Shown piece after piece: positions 7,101-25,296 of a stretch of DNA of 45,468 bases. The DNA comes from Dehalococcoidia bacterium (GTDB lineage Bacteria > Chloroflexota > Dehalococcoidia > GIF9 > AB-539-J10), in NCBI GenBank assembly GCA_030605765.1, contig JAUWHP010000022.1:1-45468 (forward strand), given 5' to 3'. Numbering within the stretch: the first letter of the stretch is position 1; the number at the start of each line of letters is the position of its first letter. The translations under genes were made by a program, and so were the position numbers. The notes under the pieces are model-generated. The model saw only the letters and a program-made list of their open reading frames with translations, was not told where the DNA came from and did not search any database.

Positions 7101-8138
7101 ATGTCACCAATAAAAGCAGGCATAATAAATGTCACGGGATATATTGGAAGTGACCTGGCTCGTTTGCTCTACCAGCATCCTCAAGTAGAGCTTGAATCGG
7201 TTACAGGGCGAAGCACGGCGGGCCAAGAGCTGGCTGATGTTTTTCCCTATCTGAGCAAAACCAGACTTTCAATAAAGGATGAACTTGATAGCAATATCAA
7301 TGTCGTTTTCTCAGCGATGCCGCACAGGTCTAGCATAGAGGTGGTACCATCATTGCTCAAAAAGGGCATGAAGGTTATCGATGTTAGTGCTGATTTCAGG
7401 CTAAAGAATGCCAGTGAATACCCTAGATGGTATGGGTTTGATCATCCGTCACCTGAATTGTTGAAGCAGGCAGTTTATGGTTTGCCTGAACTACACCGGG
7501 ATGATATCGCCTCAGCCACTTTGATAGCCAACCCTGGTTGTTATAGCACCGGCGCTATCCTGGCATTAGCCCCGGTGGTCAAGGAGAGGCTTATTTGTCC
7601 TGATATAATAATTGATAGCAAATCTGGCGTCTCGGGCGCAGGTAGAGCTCTGAGCTTAACTACCCATTATTCTGAAGCCAATGAAAATGTATGTGCTTAT
7701 TCTCTTGAAGGCCACCGACATTTACCTGAGATAGAGCAAGAATTAGAGAAGCTAAATCCTGAATTTTCTTTGTCAATAACTTTTGTACCTCACCTGGTGC
7801 CAATGACCCGGGGCATACTGAGCTCCTGCTATGCTAAACTAAGGGGAGGGTTGCTAGACGGCAGTGCTTAGGGAAAGCTACAACAACTCTATCAGGAATT
7901 TTTCAAAGATGCTCCCTTTATTCAGGTAGTAAGCAAGCCTCCTCAAACTAAATGTGCATGGGGGAGTAACTCTTGCTTCATCTACCCTACCGTCGATCTG
8001 AGGACAGGGAGATTTATAGTTATTAGCTGCCTTGACAATCTGGTAAAAGGTGGGGCAGGGCAAGCGGTTCAAAACATGAATTTGATGTTCGGTTTACCTG
8101 AGACGACAGGCCTTGAAACCCTGGCTGTTTACCCATAG
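7101..8138 (+). CDS. argC: N-acetyl-gamma-glutamyl-phosphate reductase with an in-frame TAG at 7869-7871 (345 aa if read through)
   Basis: 7101-7871 encodes the N-terminal part including NPGCYSTG. The same frame continues from 7872: GKLQQLYQEFFKDAPFIQVVSKPPQTKCAWGSNSCFIYPTVDLRTGRFIVISCLDNLVKGGAGQAVQNMNLMFGLPETTGLETLAVYP, the conserved ArgC C-terminus. Confidence 0.85.
7869..7871 (+). other. In-frame UAG codon inside argC; candidate recoding site
   Basis: GCT TAG GGA within an otherwise continuous ArgC reading frame. Confidence 0.6.
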
Positions 8139-8151
8139 AATAGTGCTGTTT

Positions 8152-14393: not shown

Positions 14394-14513
14394 TTTCTGG
14401 TGACTAGAGCGGAGTGGACCCACCCGTTCCCATCCCGAATACGGAAGTGAAACGCTCCAGCGCAGACGATACTTAAGGGGCAACCTTTTGGGAAAATATG
14501 CCGTTGCCAGGAA
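14394..14513 (+). rRNA. rrf: 5S ribosomal RNA
   Basis: TTTCTGGTG...CCCACCCGTTCCCATCCCGAATACGGAAGTGAAACGC...TGCCAGGAA; conserved loop A/B/C sequences and complementary termini (9 pairs). Confidence 0.93.
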
Positions 14514-14929: not shown

Positions 14930-15445
14930 GTGAAAAAACTAGAAATGGACATTGCTGAGCTGATAAGGGAATATCAAGCTAAGACTGGGAAATTCCTTAC
15001 CATTGGTACCGCTGAGTCAGCTACCGGTGGCAGAGTGGCCGATAGGCTAACCAATGTGCCAGGCAGTTCCGACTACTTTGAGGGCTCTGTAGTATCTTAT
15101 AGCAATGAGGCCAAAATCAACATCCTGGGGGCAAGAAGGGAGACTTTAGAAAACTATGGAGCCGTTAGCCCACAAGCAGCCATAGAAATGGCTCAAGGTG
15201 GTAAGAAACTGCTGGGTGTAGACATATGTGTTTCAGTTACAGGCATTGCTGGACCTTCAGGCGCTACTCCTGCGAAACCTGTGGGGCTTTTTTATATTGG
15301 CCTATCTGCAGAAGGTGAAAAATCGAGCCAGAAATACATTTTTCATGGGAATCGGGAGGAAAACAAGCGCGATATTGTTGAGGCAACGCTGAACATACTG
15401 AGGCAATACCTGCTACAATGCATTAGCAAATTGAAACATAGTTAG
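14930..15445 (+). CDS. CinA C-terminal domain / nicotinamide-nucleotide amidohydrolase
   Basis: 171 aa; GTAESATGGRVADRLTNVPGSSDYFEGSVVSYSNEAK, SVTGIAGPSGATPAKPVG. GTG start; TAG TAA tandem stop. Confidence 0.93.
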   Translation: MKKLEMDIAELIREYQAKTGKFLTIGTAESATGGRVADRLTNVPGSSDYFEGSVVSYSNEAKINILGARRETLENYGAVSPQAAIEMAQGGKKLLGVDICVSVTGIAGPSGATPAKPVGLFYIGLSAEGEKSSQKYIFHGNREENKRDIVEATLNILRQYLLQCISKLKHS

Positions 15446-15458
15446 TAAGAATCTGATC

Positions 15459-16994
15459 ATGGCAACATTTGACGTAGATGAAATAAAATCGCAAGCAAAG
15501 CGGAATTTTACCGAAGCATGGATGTCGACAGCAAAGCTTCTTCCAACGGGCACTAAAGTCAGTTTGCAAGGAAAAGGCAAGCCTCATATTTTACGTGAAT
15601 TGATTCAAAGATCGAGGGAGATCCTGTTAAACCTTGGCTTTGATGAGGTCGAGAACCTTACGATTTTACCTGACAGCGATGTCTCTAAGCAATATGGCCC
15701 AGAGGCTCGAGTTATCCTTGACAGGGTTTTCTATCTAGCTGAATTACCTCGTCCCGAGATTGGCTTGAGCGCTCAAAAAATAACTCAGGTGAAGAAGATA
15801 GCAGCGAAAGCCGACATCGGGGAATTAACCTCAATCTTTAGAAGGTATAAGAAGGGGGAAATTGAAGCAGATGACCTTGTTGAAAAACTTGTGACCGGAT
15901 TGGATATCACTGACTACCAAGCCACAGAACTTCTGGATAGAGTTTTCCCTGAGCTAAAGAAGCTGCGGCCGTTGCCCTCTAATAAAACATTAAGGAGCCA
16001 TATGACAGCTACGTGGTTTCACACATTAGCAGCATTACAGTATAAGGTTAGCTTTCCACTAGCTTTATTTTCAGTGGGAACCAGGTATCGCAATGAACAG
16101 AGAGAAGATGCCCAACATCTGCGTGTTCACCATTCGGCGTCGATTGTGGTAATGGATCCTGAGATGTCTTTGGATGTGGGAAAAGAAATAACCAGAGATA
16201 TCCTACAGCAATATGGTTTTTCAGACGTCAGATTCAAGACAAAGACAGCGACATCCAAGTATTATGCCCCTGGCCAGGAGCAAGAAGTTTTTGCTAAGTG
16301 CAAAGGGAATTGGCTGGAAATCGCTGATGTTGGTATGTACTCCCCTGTATCCTTAGCAAACTTCGATATTAGATACCCGGTATTTAACGCCGGATTAGGG
16401 GTCGAGCGGCTGGCAATGATTCTATATGGAGTAGATGACGTAAGAAAGCTGGCATATCCTCAATTCTCTATAGTTGAATGCTCTGATGAAGATATAACCA
16501 AATCTCTTACCTATATAGCAAATCCCAGGACTGCTACAGGAAGGGAAATTGCCAGGGCAATCGAAGAAACTGCGCGAAAATACAAAGACGAAATTGCCCC
16601 CTGCGAGTTTCTGGCCTGGGAAGATGATTCCAAACAGGTAAAAGTTGTGGAAACGGAGGCAGGTAAGAGGCTAATTGGTCCTGCAGGATTCAATGAAATA
16701 TGCGTAGCTGATAGTAGCATTTATAGCGATGTTGTTCCTTCAGGAGTATATACGGGTATAAACTATATGCGTGCCATCGCAATGGGCGCAGCAGCTTTAA
16801 TGGAAAGCAAGGATGAAAACTTAATTTACCAGGTGAAGACGGTAAAGCATCTCTCTGACTTGAATTTGCGAATTCCAGAAGCTATTCGCCAGCATATAGA
16901 AGGGCAGCAGAAAAAGATAGGAGTTAGTGGTGCTGTATTTGTAACCATAAAATCGCAATCCGTAAAGAAACCTTGTAAAACAGACAGTGAATAA
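15459..16994 (+). CDS. sepS: O-phosphoseryl-tRNA(Cys) synthetase (SepRS)
   Basis: 511 aa class IIc aaRS; FTEAWMSTAKLLP, GKPHILRELIQRSREILLNLGFDEVEN, KQYGPEARVILDRVFYLAELPRPEIGLS, motif 2 GTRYRNEQREDAQHLRVHHSASIVVMD, motif 3 NAGLGVERLAMI. Confidence 0.95.
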   Translation: MATFDVDEIKSQAKRNFTEAWMSTAKLLPTGTKVSLQGKGKPHILRELIQRSREILLNLGFDEVENLTILPDSDVSKQYGPEARVILDRVFYLAELPRPEIGLSAQKITQVKKIAAKADIGELTSIFRRYKKGEIEADDLVEKLVTGLDITDYQATELLDRVFPELKKLRPLPSNKTLRSHMTATWFHTLAALQYKVSFPLALFSVGTRYRNEQREDAQHLRVHHSASIVVMDPEMSLDVGKEITRDILQQYGFSDVRFKTKTATSKYYAPGQEQEVFAKCKGNWLEIADVGMYSPVSLANFDIRYPVFNAGLGVERLAMILYGVDDVRKLAYPQFSIVECSDEDITKSLTYIANPRTATGREIARAIEETARKYKDEIAPCEFLAWEDDSKQVKVVETEAGKRLIGPAGFNEICVADSSIYSDVVPSGVYTGINYMRAIAMGAAALMESKDENLIYQVKTVKHLSDLNLRIPEAIRQHIEGQQKKIGVSGAVFVTIKSQSVKKPCKTDSE

Positions 16995-18114
16995 ATCAGC
17001 ACAAAAACTTGCCAACTTACGTAGACCGCACAAGAATTTTATAAATCTCATGCCTTTACAAACAGGTGGCATCCTCACTGACACTGCTAAAGAGGCTTTG
17101 ATAGAGTTTGGGGATGGATATTCCGTGTGCGATTTCTGCCTTGGCAGCGTGTGTGATATAACAAAACCTCCTGTCCGTGAGTTCGTACATGAGCTCTTGC
17201 CTGAATTCCTGAGCTGCGAGGTTGCTACGCTGACCTATGGGGCGAGAGATGGCATATTTATGGTGATGCATTCTCTAACCCAGCCAGGTGATTCAATTAT
17301 TGTTGATGAGAATAGGCATTACACTACGATTGTCGCCGCTGAAAGGGTAGGGTTGAACGTGACAGAGGTGCCTCACTCTGGCTATCCCGAATTCAGGATT
17401 GACGTTAACGACTATATGCCACTCATAGAGAAGCATAACCCTAAACTAATTTTACTAACATACCCCGATGGCAATCATGGAAATCTCACTGATGCTGTAA
17501 GGCTAGGAGAAATTGCCCAGGAAAGTGATATCCCTTATGTGCTTAATGGAGCATATGCAGTGGGCAGAATGCCTGTAAAGATGAACGATTTAGGAGCTGA
17601 TTTCATTATTGGTAGTGGCCATAAAAGCATGGCTTCTGCCGGACCTTGTGGAGTATTGGGAATGAAAAAGAAATGGGAAGAAATCGTATTGAGAAAATCT
17701 AAGGCATATAGCAACAAAGAGATTGAGCTTCTTGGCTGCACTTTGAGAGGTGTTCCACTAATTACACTCATGGCTTCCTTTCCTCACGTAAAGGAAAGGA
17801 TTAACCACTGGGATAAGCAAGTAGTAAAAGCACAGTGGTTCTCCAGTGAGCTGCAGAAATTGGGATTTAAGCAATTGGGAGAAACACCACATAGACACGA
17901 TTTACTGCACTTTGAAACACCCACGCTTTACGATATTTCCAAGCATGTTCGAGAAAGAGGATATTTCCTTTATGAAGAACTTAAAGACAGAGGCATTTGG
18001 GGACCACAACCGGGTATGACAAAAGCATTTAAGGTTTCCACCTTTGCCGCTGACAAAGAACAGCTAGGCTTTGTCGTAGATTCCTTTAAGGCTATCCTAA
18101 GCAAGTATGGTTGA
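16987..18114 (+). CDS. pscS: O-phospho-L-seryl-tRNA:Cys-tRNA synthase (SepCysS)
   Basis: 375 aa PLP enzyme; NFINLMPLQTGGILTDTAKEALIEFGDGYSVCDFC (C48/C51), VDENRHYTTIVAAERVGLNVTEVPHSGYPEFRID, GSGHKSMAS (PLP lysine), LLGCTLRG (third Cys). GTG start overlaps sepS by 8 nt. Confidence 0.95.
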   Translation: MNKSAQKLANLRRPHKNFINLMPLQTGGILTDTAKEALIEFGDGYSVCDFCLGSVCDITKPPVREFVHELLPEFLSCEVATLTYGARDGIFMVMHSLTQPGDSIIVDENRHYTTIVAAERVGLNVTEVPHSGYPEFRIDVNDYMPLIEKHNPKLILLTYPDGNHGNLTDAVRLGEIAQESDIPYVLNGAYAVGRMPVKMNDLGADFIIGSGHKSMASAGPCGVLGMKKKWEEIVLRKSKAYSNKEIELLGCTLRGVPLITLMASFPHVKERINHWDKQVVKAQWFSSELQKLGFKQLGETPHRHDLLHFETPTLYDISKHVRERGYFLYEELKDRGIWGPQPGMTKAFKVSTFAADKEQLGFVVDSFKAILSKYG

Positions 18115-18177: not shown

Positions 18178-18858
18178 TTAACCTATTTTCATTCCAACTC
18201 GTTGTGCAGTAAAGGCTTCGCATTTTTGCCTGTGAGCTTCTTTCAATCGTTGGAAGCAAGATTGAGATGGAGCTGAGGTAATATCGCCCGTGCTCATAAG
18301 TACGGCATCTTCGCCGTTGTCTGAATAATATTTAGGATGAGTGCTCATTATGCGAAACCCATATTTCTTATAAAGTGCCTGTGCTATCTCATTAGAAACA
18401 CGCACTTCTAGAGTTATCACATTGGCATTTAGCTGGCTAGCCAGCTCAATAGTTGAAATGAGCAGTCCTTCGCCTATTCCCATTCGACGATAGTTATTTC
18501 TTACAGCAATAGCGATAATATGCACCTCATTCAACATAGCCCACAAACCGGCAAAGCCGATGATGTATTCTTTGGTACGGAGGCCGCTTTGTTCTTTCCC
18601 TGCTGGTATTGCCCGGCGATAATCAAAAAGGCGATTGAGCCAGGATGTTTCTCTGGAGTCTTCCCGGGCCAATTTGGCTCCAAATCCACTCCTGATACAG
18701 GCTACTATGTAATGAGCTGATGAATTGTGAATTTCTTGCTTGTAAGAAGTGTGAGAGTGAAACAGCCATTCGCCAGGAAAAGCCTCGTGGTCAATCTCGG
18801 TTACTTGAGGAATATCCCCATCAATTATAGGGCGAATACGATAAGTTGGTTTTTGCAT
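18178..18858 (-). CDS. rimI: GNAT N-acetyltransferase, RimI-like
   Basis: 226 aa; NEVHIIAIAVRNNYRRMGIGEGLLISTIELA, LEVRVSNEIAQALYKKYGF. Confidence 0.85.
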   Translation of the reverse strand: MQKPTYRIRPIIDGDIPQVTEIDHEAFPGEWLFHSHTSYKQEIHNSSAHYIVACIRSGFGAKLAREDSRETSWLNRLFDYRRAIPAGKEQSGLRTKEYIIGFAGLWAMLNEVHIIAIAVRNNYRRMGIGEGLLISTIELASQLNANVITLEVRVSNEIAQALYKKYGFRIMSTHPKYYSDNGEDAVLMSTGDITSAPSQSCFQRLKEAHRQKCEAFTAQRVGMKIG

Positions 18859-22615: not shown

Positions 22616-23857
22616 ATGGAAAGCCAAAGATGTAAGGGGATGCGTGATTTGCTTCGCAAGGATATGGCGTGTTTCCGCCATATTGAGGATGCCTTTCGAA
22701 CTTGCTGCACGAGGTGGGGATATCAAGAGGTAAGGACACCCACGTTAGAATACCTTCACTTGTTTACTGCCACGGGAACGCTTACTCCAAGCAAGCTAAA
22801 CAAGACATATTCCTTTCTTGATTGGGATGGTTGGAGTGGCGAAAGAGTAGTATTGCGACCAGATGGCACCATTCCTGTGGCCAGGCTTTACATTAATAAT
22901 CTAAGCGAATACGAAATAGCTAAACTTTTCTATGTGACCAATATTTTCGCCTTTGAGGAGACGGGCCGTGAAAATAGAGAAAGGTGGCAATGTGGCGCTG
23001 AATTTCTGGGTGGTGTTGGGTTGACGGCGGATGTGGAAATAATTTCCCTGGCCAAAGAGGTTGTGTGTAAACTTGGACTTAACAACATTAGGTTGCAGTT
23101 ATCTCATGCTGGCTTGATGAAAGCGTTAATTAAGGAACTCAATCTTAGCCACGGTGAAGAAGCCAAAATAACAGACCGTGTTTTGGATGGAGACTGGCAA
23201 GCATTGATGGAGGCAAAAACAACTAAACCTGAGTTGAACAGGCTTTTATCTCCACTTTTGAACCTAAAGGGGAAATCAAGCGACTTCCTGCAGAATATAA
23301 AAGCCTTATGTCAGCAGGTTTCATCGGACCTCAAATCTTCCATGGAGGATTTTATAAACATAACCACGTTGCTAGATAGTCTGAGCTGTAATTACGAAAT
23401 TGATATCATGGCGATACGAGGTTTTGAGTATTACACTGGAGTTTGCTTCCAATTATTGGCCGATGGAAAGAAAATAGGTGGTGGGGGAAGATATGATAAC
23501 CTTATTCCACTTATGGGTGGGGGGAATGTCCCTGCTTGCGGGTTTGCTCTTTACGTTGACCCTATAATGGGATTGCTCCCGTTGGAAAATAAGAAGAGAA
23601 ATGCATGCGGAATTCTGATTAGGGCTGAGGAGCCTGCCCTAGAGGTAGCAAAAACGTGCTTCACCTTGGCCCAATCACTTCGTGAGACGGGGCACACAGT
23701 GGAAGTTAGTTTCTCAGAGCAGAAGCCAGATAACTATCGTTGGGTTATCTCAATTTCGCGGACTGAGCCAGATCAATTTACCATTATTGACTGCAAACAA
23801 CAACGGCAGTGGAATGTAGCTTCCGTGGCAGAAATTCTTGATATACTAGCTAAGTAG
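22616..23857 (+). CDS. hisZ: ATP phosphoribosyltransferase regulatory subunit
   Basis: 413 aa HisRS-like protein beside hisG; GMRDLLRKDMACFRHIEDAF, RPDGTIPVARLY, GGGRYDNLIPLMG. Confidence 0.88.
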   Translation: MESQRCKGMRDLLRKDMACFRHIEDAFRTCCTRWGYQEVRTPTLEYLHLFTATGTLTPSKLNKTYSFLDWDGWSGERVVLRPDGTIPVARLYINNLSEYEIAKLFYVTNIFAFEETGRENRERWQCGAEFLGGVGLTADVEIISLAKEVVCKLGLNNIRLQLSHAGLMKALIKELNLSHGEEAKITDRVLDGDWQALMEAKTTKPELNRLLSPLLNLKGKSSDFLQNIKALCQQVSSDLKSSMEDFINITTLLDSLSCNYEIDIMAIRGFEYYTGVCFQLLADGKKIGGGGRYDNLIPLMGGGNVPACGFALYVDPIMGLLPLENKKRNACGILIRAEEPALEVAKTCFTLAQSLRETGHTVEVSFSEQKPDNYRWVISISRTEPDQFTIIDCKQQRQWNVASVAEILDILAK

Positions 23858-23865
23858 AGTTACCA

Positions 23866-25296
23866 GTGAAAGACCAGTCAGAGTATATTAGACTCGCTTT
23901 GCCTAAAGGTAGGCTCTTGTCGCCCACGGCTAACTTGCTTAAAGAGATAACTTTAAATTTTAGAGGTTACAGCGATAACACGAGGCGGTATCGCCTTCGA
24001 GCAGCAGGATTCTCTCATCTCTTAGCCAAGATATTTCGGGAGAAAGATATCCCTATTCAGGTAGCTATAGGCAATTATGATTTAGGTATATGTGGCTTGG
24101 ATTGGGTTGAGGAACTTTTAGCGAGGTATCCATCGAGTGCCTTGGTAAAAATATCAAGCCTGAATTACGGCGAAGGCGGTATATATGTGGTGGCCAGCCA
24201 TCAAACGGGAATATCTAACATTGATGAATTATCAGCCAGGCAGAGTAATTGGCGGGTAGCAAGCGAGTACCCTAATTTGGCTCAGGGTTTTGCCTTAAAT
24301 CTTAGAATGAAAGCGTTCAAGATTTTCCCAGTATGGGGGGCTGCTGAAGTTTATCCACCAGAGGATGCTAACCTAGCGATATTATGGGCGAAGGATGAAA
24401 GCGAGATAGAGACGCAAGGCTTGATTCCCTTAATTAAGTTGCTCTCAGTCAATGCCTCTCTAATTGCCAACAGAGAAAGCTTGGAGAAGCGGGACATGAA
24501 TCAGATATTGAAATGCTTTAGCCCTAAATTGGTTTCCAAACCGCGGGCAAATACTACTGTTATTGTGGGGTTGGGGCGAAGTAATCACGTTACTTTTTGT
24601 CCGCCAGAAAAAGCTAGGAGAATTAAGCTAGCTTTACCTGATGGCCATCAGCAACTACCTGCTGCGCAGTTTTTAAAACAAGTTGGGCTTGACATTTATG
24701 GGTATACTACGGGAGCATTAAATCGCCGCCCCTCTACCGATTTAGACTGGCTCGGTATTAAAGTGATTAGGCCGCAAGATATGCCTCTGCAAGTGGCTAA
24801 TGGCAATTTTGATCTGGCTATAACTGGCAGTGATTGGTTGCTAGAGCATTTGTATCGTTTTCCCTCAAGCCCTGTGATGAAATTGCTTGACCTTGGCTTT
24901 GGTAAAGTCAAGATTGTGGCAGCGGTGAGCAAAGATATGCCCATAACCAATGTTGATGACTTAAGCTCGTTTATTCAAAGTGGTAAAATTGCTCTCTTAA
25001 GAGTAGCTTCAGAGTACATAAATATCGCTGATAAATATCTTCGAGATAACTACATCAATCCCTATAAATTGATTCCAACATGGGGAGCAAGTGAAGCTTT
25101 CTTGCCCGAAGATGCCGATTTGCTCATTGACAATATCCAAACCGGGAAAACTTTGGCACAGCATGACCTAAAAGTCATCGATGTACTTTTTGAATCCACG
25201 GCTTGCTTAATTGGAAGCAAAGATAATGTCAGCCCTCCTGATAAAAAAGAGAAAACCGAATTTCTTATTCAGGCATTGCGGCGAGGGCTATTATGA
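23866..25296 (+). CDS. hisG: ATP phosphoribosyltransferase, tandem double-domain HisG (476 aa)
   Basis: Two HisG-like halves: IRLALPKGRLLSPT...NYDLGICGLDWVEEL... and IKLALPDGHQQLPA...NFDLAITGSDWLLEH...PEDADLLIDNIQTGKTLAQHDL. Confidence 0.9.
   Translation: MKDQSEYIRLALPKGRLLSPTANLLKEITLNFRGYSDNTRRYRLRAAGFSHLLAKIFREKDIPIQVAIGNYDLGICGLDWVEELLARYPSSALVKISSLNYGEGGIYVVASHQTGISNIDELSARQSNWRVASEYPNLAQGFALNLRMKAFKIFPVWGAAEVYPPEDANLAILWAKDESEIETQGLIPLIKLLSVNASLIANRESLEKRDMNQILKCFSPKLVSKPRANTTVIVGLGRSNHVTFCPPEKARRIKLALPDGHQQLPAAQFLKQVGLDIYGYTTGALNRRPSTDLDWLGIKVIRPQDMPLQVANGNFDLAITGSDWLLEHLYRFPSSPVMKLLDLGFGKVKIVAAVSKDMPITNVDDLSSFIQSGKIALLRVASEYINIADKYLRDNYINPYKLIPTWGASEAFLPEDADLLIDNIQTGKTLAQHDLKVIDVLFESTACLIGSKDNVSPPDKKEKTEFLIQALRRGLL

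Follow-up and report, generated by a model that had tools for sequence, protein, structure and literature searches.

Our results indicate that a family of the Chloroflexota likely includes bacteria without CysRS, cysE and cysK, which rely entirely on a SepRS-SepCysS operon of archaeal type that has taken over their native A37 tRNA-Cys; intermediates in both directions would accompany them in the same family, as genomes with both routes to Cys-tRNA, with the Sep pathway only, with CysRS only, or with a decayed Sep operon. To our knowledge, CysRS is otherwise treated as universal in bacteria. The operon lies in a stretch of 45,468 nucleotides, called here the window, from the genome of an uncultured Dehalococcoidales-type bacterium of the Dehalococcoidia. 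Taken as a whole, it is very likely that the Sep pathway works in this organism, probably as the sole route to Cys-tRNA, and that it entered the lineage as a single operon, with later losses. Mukai et al. 2017 (PMC5424206) have already reported that Chloroflexi carry SepRS-SepCysS, that the two genes form an operon and that the enzymes are active in vitro; what may be new is the absence of CysRS from the clade.

The operon and its two constant neighbours are the following.

14930..15445, + strand: pncC/CinA-C-like gene (TIGR00199, 142 bits), 13 nt upstream of sepRS
15459..16994, + strand: sepRS (sepS), O-phosphoseryl-tRNA(Cys) synthetase, 511 aa (TIGR00470; 2du3; clade with Dehalococcoidia SepRS)
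16987..18114, + strand: sepCysS, Sep-tRNA:Cys-tRNA synthase, 375 aa, GTG start (TIGR02539; 2e7i)
18178..18858, - strand: rimI-like N-acetyltransferase (TIGR01575, 107 bits), constant downstream neighbour

Family identity was established with NCBIfam equivalog models. TIGR00470 (sepS) matches 15459-16994 with 457.2 bits against a cut-off of 380.65, over nearly its full length (SepRS residues 5-499, positions 4-530 of the 533 in the model), and TIGR02539 (SepCysS) matches 16987-18114 with 515.5 bits against a cut-off of 365.25. The top PDB matches are the two enzymes of A. fulgidus, SepRS 2du3 (E 9e-118) and SepCysS 2e7i (E 9e-137). A preliminary description of this DNA had proposed the same pair, and its assignment is borne out by scores far above both cut-offs and by the residues kept. 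The outcome that it had named as contrary, membership of PheRS/PylRS or of another PLP family, was examined by profiles and did not materialise: pheS and PylS reach 95 and 28 bits on 15459-16994, both far below their own cut-offs. The two reading frames overlap by 8 nt, as given exactly by their coordinates in the window, and are strongly conserved with relatives, with no stop and no frameshift. No SepCysE scaffold or SepCysSn gene stands directly before SepCysS, where sepRS overlaps it.

Residues and subtype signatures were located by alignment.

15999..16007, + strand: SepRS H181-M182-T183 (HMT), aligned with the Sep-binding segment of A. fulgidus SepRS
16134..16142, + strand: SepRS S226-A227-S228 (SAS), aligned with A. 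fulgidus S231/S233
16386..16394, + strand: SepRS N310-A311-G312 (NAG), the Asn-X-Gly motif
16728..16730, + strand: SepRS D424, Asp replacing A. fulgidus Ile444
17128..17139, + strand: SepCysS C48-D-F-C51 (CDFC), cysteine pair, aligned with 2e7i and 3wkr
17623..17625, + strand: SepCysS K213, PLP lysine in GSGHKS, aligned with 2e7i and 3wkr
17737..17739, + strand: SepCysS C251, third conserved cysteine (LLGCT), aligned with 2e7i and 3wkr

The HM pair of SepRS is invariant among the aligned relatives, one of which has Ser in place of T183, and N310 and G312 are invariant throughout the SepRS alignment. The Thr of HMT takes part in Sep binding, a role described in the SepRS crystal papers, and S231/S233 of A. 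fulgidus recognise the phosphate. The window SepRS reads IYSD, followed by an 8-residue gap where A. fulgidus has a helix. Judged from the alignment, D424 together with the absent 8-residue helix is a loss of the m1G37-recognition motif and marks the bacterial SepRS subtype. The window SepCysS, compared with 2e7i, shows a 4-residue gap around A. fulgidus 144-147 and, behind residue 234, no 8-aa insertion, and by these two features it fits the bacterial SepCysS lineage. The bacterial SepRS signature, Asp for Ile444 with the adjacent helix absent, is defined in the main text of PMC5424206, and the Asn-X-Gly motif of SepRS is treated in that of PMC8762117.

The surroundings of the operon are bacterial on both sides, as the preliminary description had stated: uvrC, DUF72 and pncC lie upstream, and rimI, pyrD, a stomatin-like gene and nfeD lie downstream. 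The gene order uvrC-DUF72-pncC-[sepRS-sepCysS]-rimI-pyrD recurs in about 30 independent Dehalococcoidia MAGs, and pncC-sepRS-sepCysS-rimI is the order at most of the Dehalococcoidia loci retrieved, including that of the deepest genus of the family in the PheST tree. At most of these loci pncC is conserved upstream of sepRS, a constant neighbour for which no role in the pathway is proposed, and the rimI-like gene delimits the inserted operon on its far side. In quick-build trees, with SH-aLRT as the only support, the Dehalococcoidia SepRS are monophyletic (SH-aLRT 98), and the SepRS tree, which the preliminary description had suggested, places the window enzyme in this clade, apart from the 20 archaeal sequences of the branch; the nearest sequences outside the Dehalococcoidia are those of Desulfobacteraceae, Parcubacteria and Woesearchaeota. 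The SepRS of a second MAG, Dehalococcoidia bacterium RS_17_36, is 98% identical to that of the window, and G+C is 43% for the segment and 45% for the window. Archaeal contamination or a chimeric contig, an outcome also raised in the preliminary description, might be suspected for a pathway that is classically archaeal, but the bacterial flanks, the order shared by so many independent MAGs, the second MAG, the base composition and the position in the tree all speak against it; it is extremely improbable, and synteny rules it out unless one artefact is common to all those MAGs. Synteny and the monophyly of SepRS together exclude contamination and are consistent with one acquisition followed by vertical inheritance.

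The window's own genome (G000; 950,956 bases, 47 contigs, 87.6% complete) carries a single tRNA-Cys, in a tRNA cluster (G000:C19:34534-34606), with anticodon GCA, A37 and U73. No cysS was found in the contigs of this genome by a search that detected all control sequences, no cysK/cysM at 1e-30 and no cysE at 1e-20. Weak cysS matches (21-28 bits) were not counted; they fall within long open frames of 559-1017 aa and for this reason are probably other class I synthetases. Given the completeness and the number of contigs, the absence of cysS from this genome alone is weak evidence and the argument rests on the relatives. Moreover, cysS, cysK and cysE are often clustered in the family, so that their joint absence from one MAG does not amount to three independent facts. 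The gene serA is present (632.9 bits) and is directly preceded by a class-V aminotransferase gene, which makes a supply of phosphoserine plausible; the best models for the aminotransferase are of the aspartate-glyoxylate/PhnW type, with scores below their cut-offs, and its role as SerC is thus presumptive. A DUF1015 gene faces this pair on contig C46 (L276:3907-4887). Cysteine makes up 1.17% of the residues encoded in the window, and its usage by the genome is normal. HcyBio (PF01837) was considered as a marker of the Sep pathway and rejected: it is present in this genome, but it is common in CysRS-only relatives too.

A survey of 84 genomes of the order, with completeness estimates rounded for relatives, found SepRS above the cut-off in 32 genomes, all within the family of the window, and SepRS fragments or SepCysS alone in a few additional family genomes. 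Members of the family have the Sep pathway only, both routes, as in the relatives RBG_13_51_36 (G023/G095), G027, G031 and G040, or CysRS only. In 24 of 36 Sep-positive family genomes cysS is absent, whereas incompleteness would account for 5.4, and not one of 200000 simulations gave a number that high; the 36 do not include two Sep-positive genomes whose contigs break off where cysS would be expected. When the comparison is restricted to genomes with a completeness of 90% or more and no more than 5% contamination, cysS is absent from 6/11 with SepRS and from 0/13 without it (Fisher p 0.003). The first fraction is 6/11 rather than 7/12 because the cysK-cysE contig of G032 ends at about the expected position of cysS; G025 and G045 were set aside for a similar contig end. 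Two genomes that are 99% complete, isolate AUK178 (G022) and AlinenSedimentsD2_bin-0330 (G042), are without cysS, cysE and cysK. In the clade of the window, cysE is found in none of the ten genomes, cysK-like matches occur in only two, and cysS is likewise found in none; that assembly had missed an existing cysS every time has p about 1e-7. These probabilities assume a random and independent loss of genes from assemblies, which MAGs only approximate. Both other genomes of the window's genus (G016, 92% complete; G017, 68%) are without cysS.

For this organism and those closely related to it, the Sep pathway is probably the sole source of Cys-tRNA, since CysRS appears to have disappeared together with cysE and cysK. 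SepRS would attach O-phosphoserine, a product of SerA and of the class-V aminotransferase in the presumed role of SerC, to the bacterial tRNA-Cys of the genome (GCA, A37, U73), and SepCysS would then swap the phosphate for sulfur, by means of PLP and its cysteines, to give Cys-tRNA. The activity of both window enzymes is predicted from their sequences. The preliminary description had proposed an indirect route to Cys-tRNA; it appears to hold up, from family identity, residues and the presence of a tRNA-Cys in the genome. The absence of a tRNA-Cys from the 45,468-nt window was confirmed, and the searches for cysS, cysK, cysE and cysM elsewhere and the reading of tRNA-Cys identity elements, both proposed there, gave the results described above. 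Where it had left open whether the pathway replaces or supplements CysRS, the data now favour replacement for the organism and those nearest to it: its genome shows no cysS, cysE or cysK, and the ten-genome clade no cysS or cysE. Supplementing applies in other genera of the family.

The two routes may instead coexist, if CysRS is encoded in DNA missing from the assembly and the Sep pathway serves chiefly to supply free cysteine, a role that has been proposed for archaea having both routes. The incompleteness of the genome leaves room for this, and RBG_13_51_36, G027, G031 and G040 do carry both; nevertheless, it is unlikely, given that cysS is absent from G016, from G017 and from all ten genomes of the wider clade, and that cysE is absent from all of them as well. 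A SepRS-like enzyme with changed specificity, as has been suggested for some Thermoplasmata proteins, or an operon in decay is a still more doubtful explanation, to which we give very little weight. Altered Asn-X-Gly motifs exist according to the main text of PMC8762117, and a fossil operon is present in a relative (G037), but in the window HMT, SAS and NAG are intact, SepRS scores far above the equivalog cut-off, and the uninterrupted frames are highly conserved with relatives. A working Sep pathway that has probably replaced CysRS remains the preferred reading.

As to its history, the operon would have been inserted a single time in the family, between pncC and rimI, and then passed on vertically; CysRS and the Sep operon would each have been lost later in different descendant lineages. 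In the tree, every CysRS of the family groups with the other CysRS of the order and therefore looks ancestral; that of G004 (two copies, 5% contamination) is the sole one misplaced relative to the PheST tree. Retention with repeated loss is thus simpler than re-acquisition from outside as a cysK-cysE-cysS cluster, which the CysRS tree does not support. On the PheS+PheT tree, the presence of cysS changed at least five times among genomes at least 90% complete. Loss in the reverse direction, that of the Sep operon, is seen in G037 (95% complete), which has CysRS and no intact SepRS. Downstream of pncC, at the orthologous locus (L213:4103-4622), lies a fossil sepRS-sepCysS: a stretch of SepRS (residues 4-74) is joined, with frameshifts, to one of SepCysS (residues 158-272), and arginine has replaced the third cysteine (LLGR). 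The tRNA-Cys has A37 and U73 in 30/30 loci read in the order, whichever route is present. A comparison of Sep-only with CysRS-only genomes showed no difference in this tRNA; it is near-identical under either route, which indicates that anticodon, base 37 and discriminator could all stay as they were during the takeover. These data are best read as a single ancestral insertion of the operon, followed by repeated loss of either route.

The main text of PMC5424206 describes SepRS-SepCysS operons in Chloroflexi, as the preliminary description had correctly stated, with activity in vitro on A37 tRNA-Cys: Sep charging was shown for another Chloroflexi SepRS, and the conversion of Sep-tRNA to Cys-tRNA, along with an Fe-S cluster, for another Chloroflexi SepCysS. 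In vitro activity is known from the literature for other Chloroflexi and Parcubacteria homologues. The window shares with these operons, including that of Chloroflexi bacterium RBG_13_51_36 (75-76% identity), the gene order, the SepRS signature (Asp for Ile444, absent helix), the lack of about 4 residues in the 144-147 loop of SepCysS and its three cysteines. RBG_13_51_36, however, has CysRS and a cysK-cysE cluster, whereas the window's genome shows none. With Archaeoglobus and methanogens the window has in common the fold families and the catalytic and Sep-binding residues, at a SepRS identity of about 40-46%; unlike theirs, its pair forms an operon with an 8-nt overlap, and archaeal SepRS keeps the m1G37 motif and a G37 tRNA, whereas the tRNA-Cys here is the bacterial A37 type. 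Many methanogens are also without CysRS (PMC8762117, main text). The nearest relatives outside the Chloroflexi, in Desulfobacteraceae, Parcubacteria (RS_17_37) and Woesearchaeota, have the same adjacent pair at 52-54% identity, but their flanks differ from those of the window, and the SepRS-positive Desulfobacteraceae genome has CysRS. Candidatus Parcubacteria RS_17_37 (L095; about 0.7 Mb), also SepRS-positive, shows no CysRS at 1e-20. The 2022 survey in PMC8762117 extends the work on Chloroflexi and reports, in its main text, CysRS retained in bacterial lineages. The main texts of both papers do not discuss CysRS-free bacteria, and no other paper on them was found in a search that covered the main texts of papers available without subscription.

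If true, this would be a natural experiment in swapping how one amino acid is encoded. A bacterial clade without CysRS would show that, outside archaea too, tRNA-dependent cysteine synthesis can fully replace direct charging while the bacterial tRNA-Cys stays unchanged. Since close relatives have one system, the other, both or a decayed one, comparison among them can test what caused the swap, the candidates being sulfide supply, free cysteine supply and Fe-S demand.

Some loci depart from the usual arrangement. In G042, SepRS and SepCysS are separated by about 5 kb (L278:1716-9625) that hold a cation-efflux-like gene and a cysteine-desulfurase-family gene (TIGR01977), the latter a possible sulfur donor. 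In G001, SepCysS lies away from SepRS and is directly followed by tRNA-Cys and an HcyBio (homocysteine-biosynthesis) gene (L277:1460-4328). Elsewhere in the window, a lone 5S rRNA gene (14396-14512, + strand; Rfam RF00001, 91.6 bits) lies between DUF72 and pncC; the window contains neither 16S nor 23S rRNA. The argC gene (7101-8140, + strand) has an in-frame TGA at 7869-7871, after about 250 of 345 model positions, and its frame stays open for roughly 90 codons beyond, resembling the absent C-terminus; the TGA may be a nonsense mutation, a sequencing error or a site of readthrough. At 23866-25296 (+ strand), directly following a HisZ/HisRS-like gene (22616-23857), two HisG (ATP phosphoribosyltransferase) domains are fused in one 476-aa frame.
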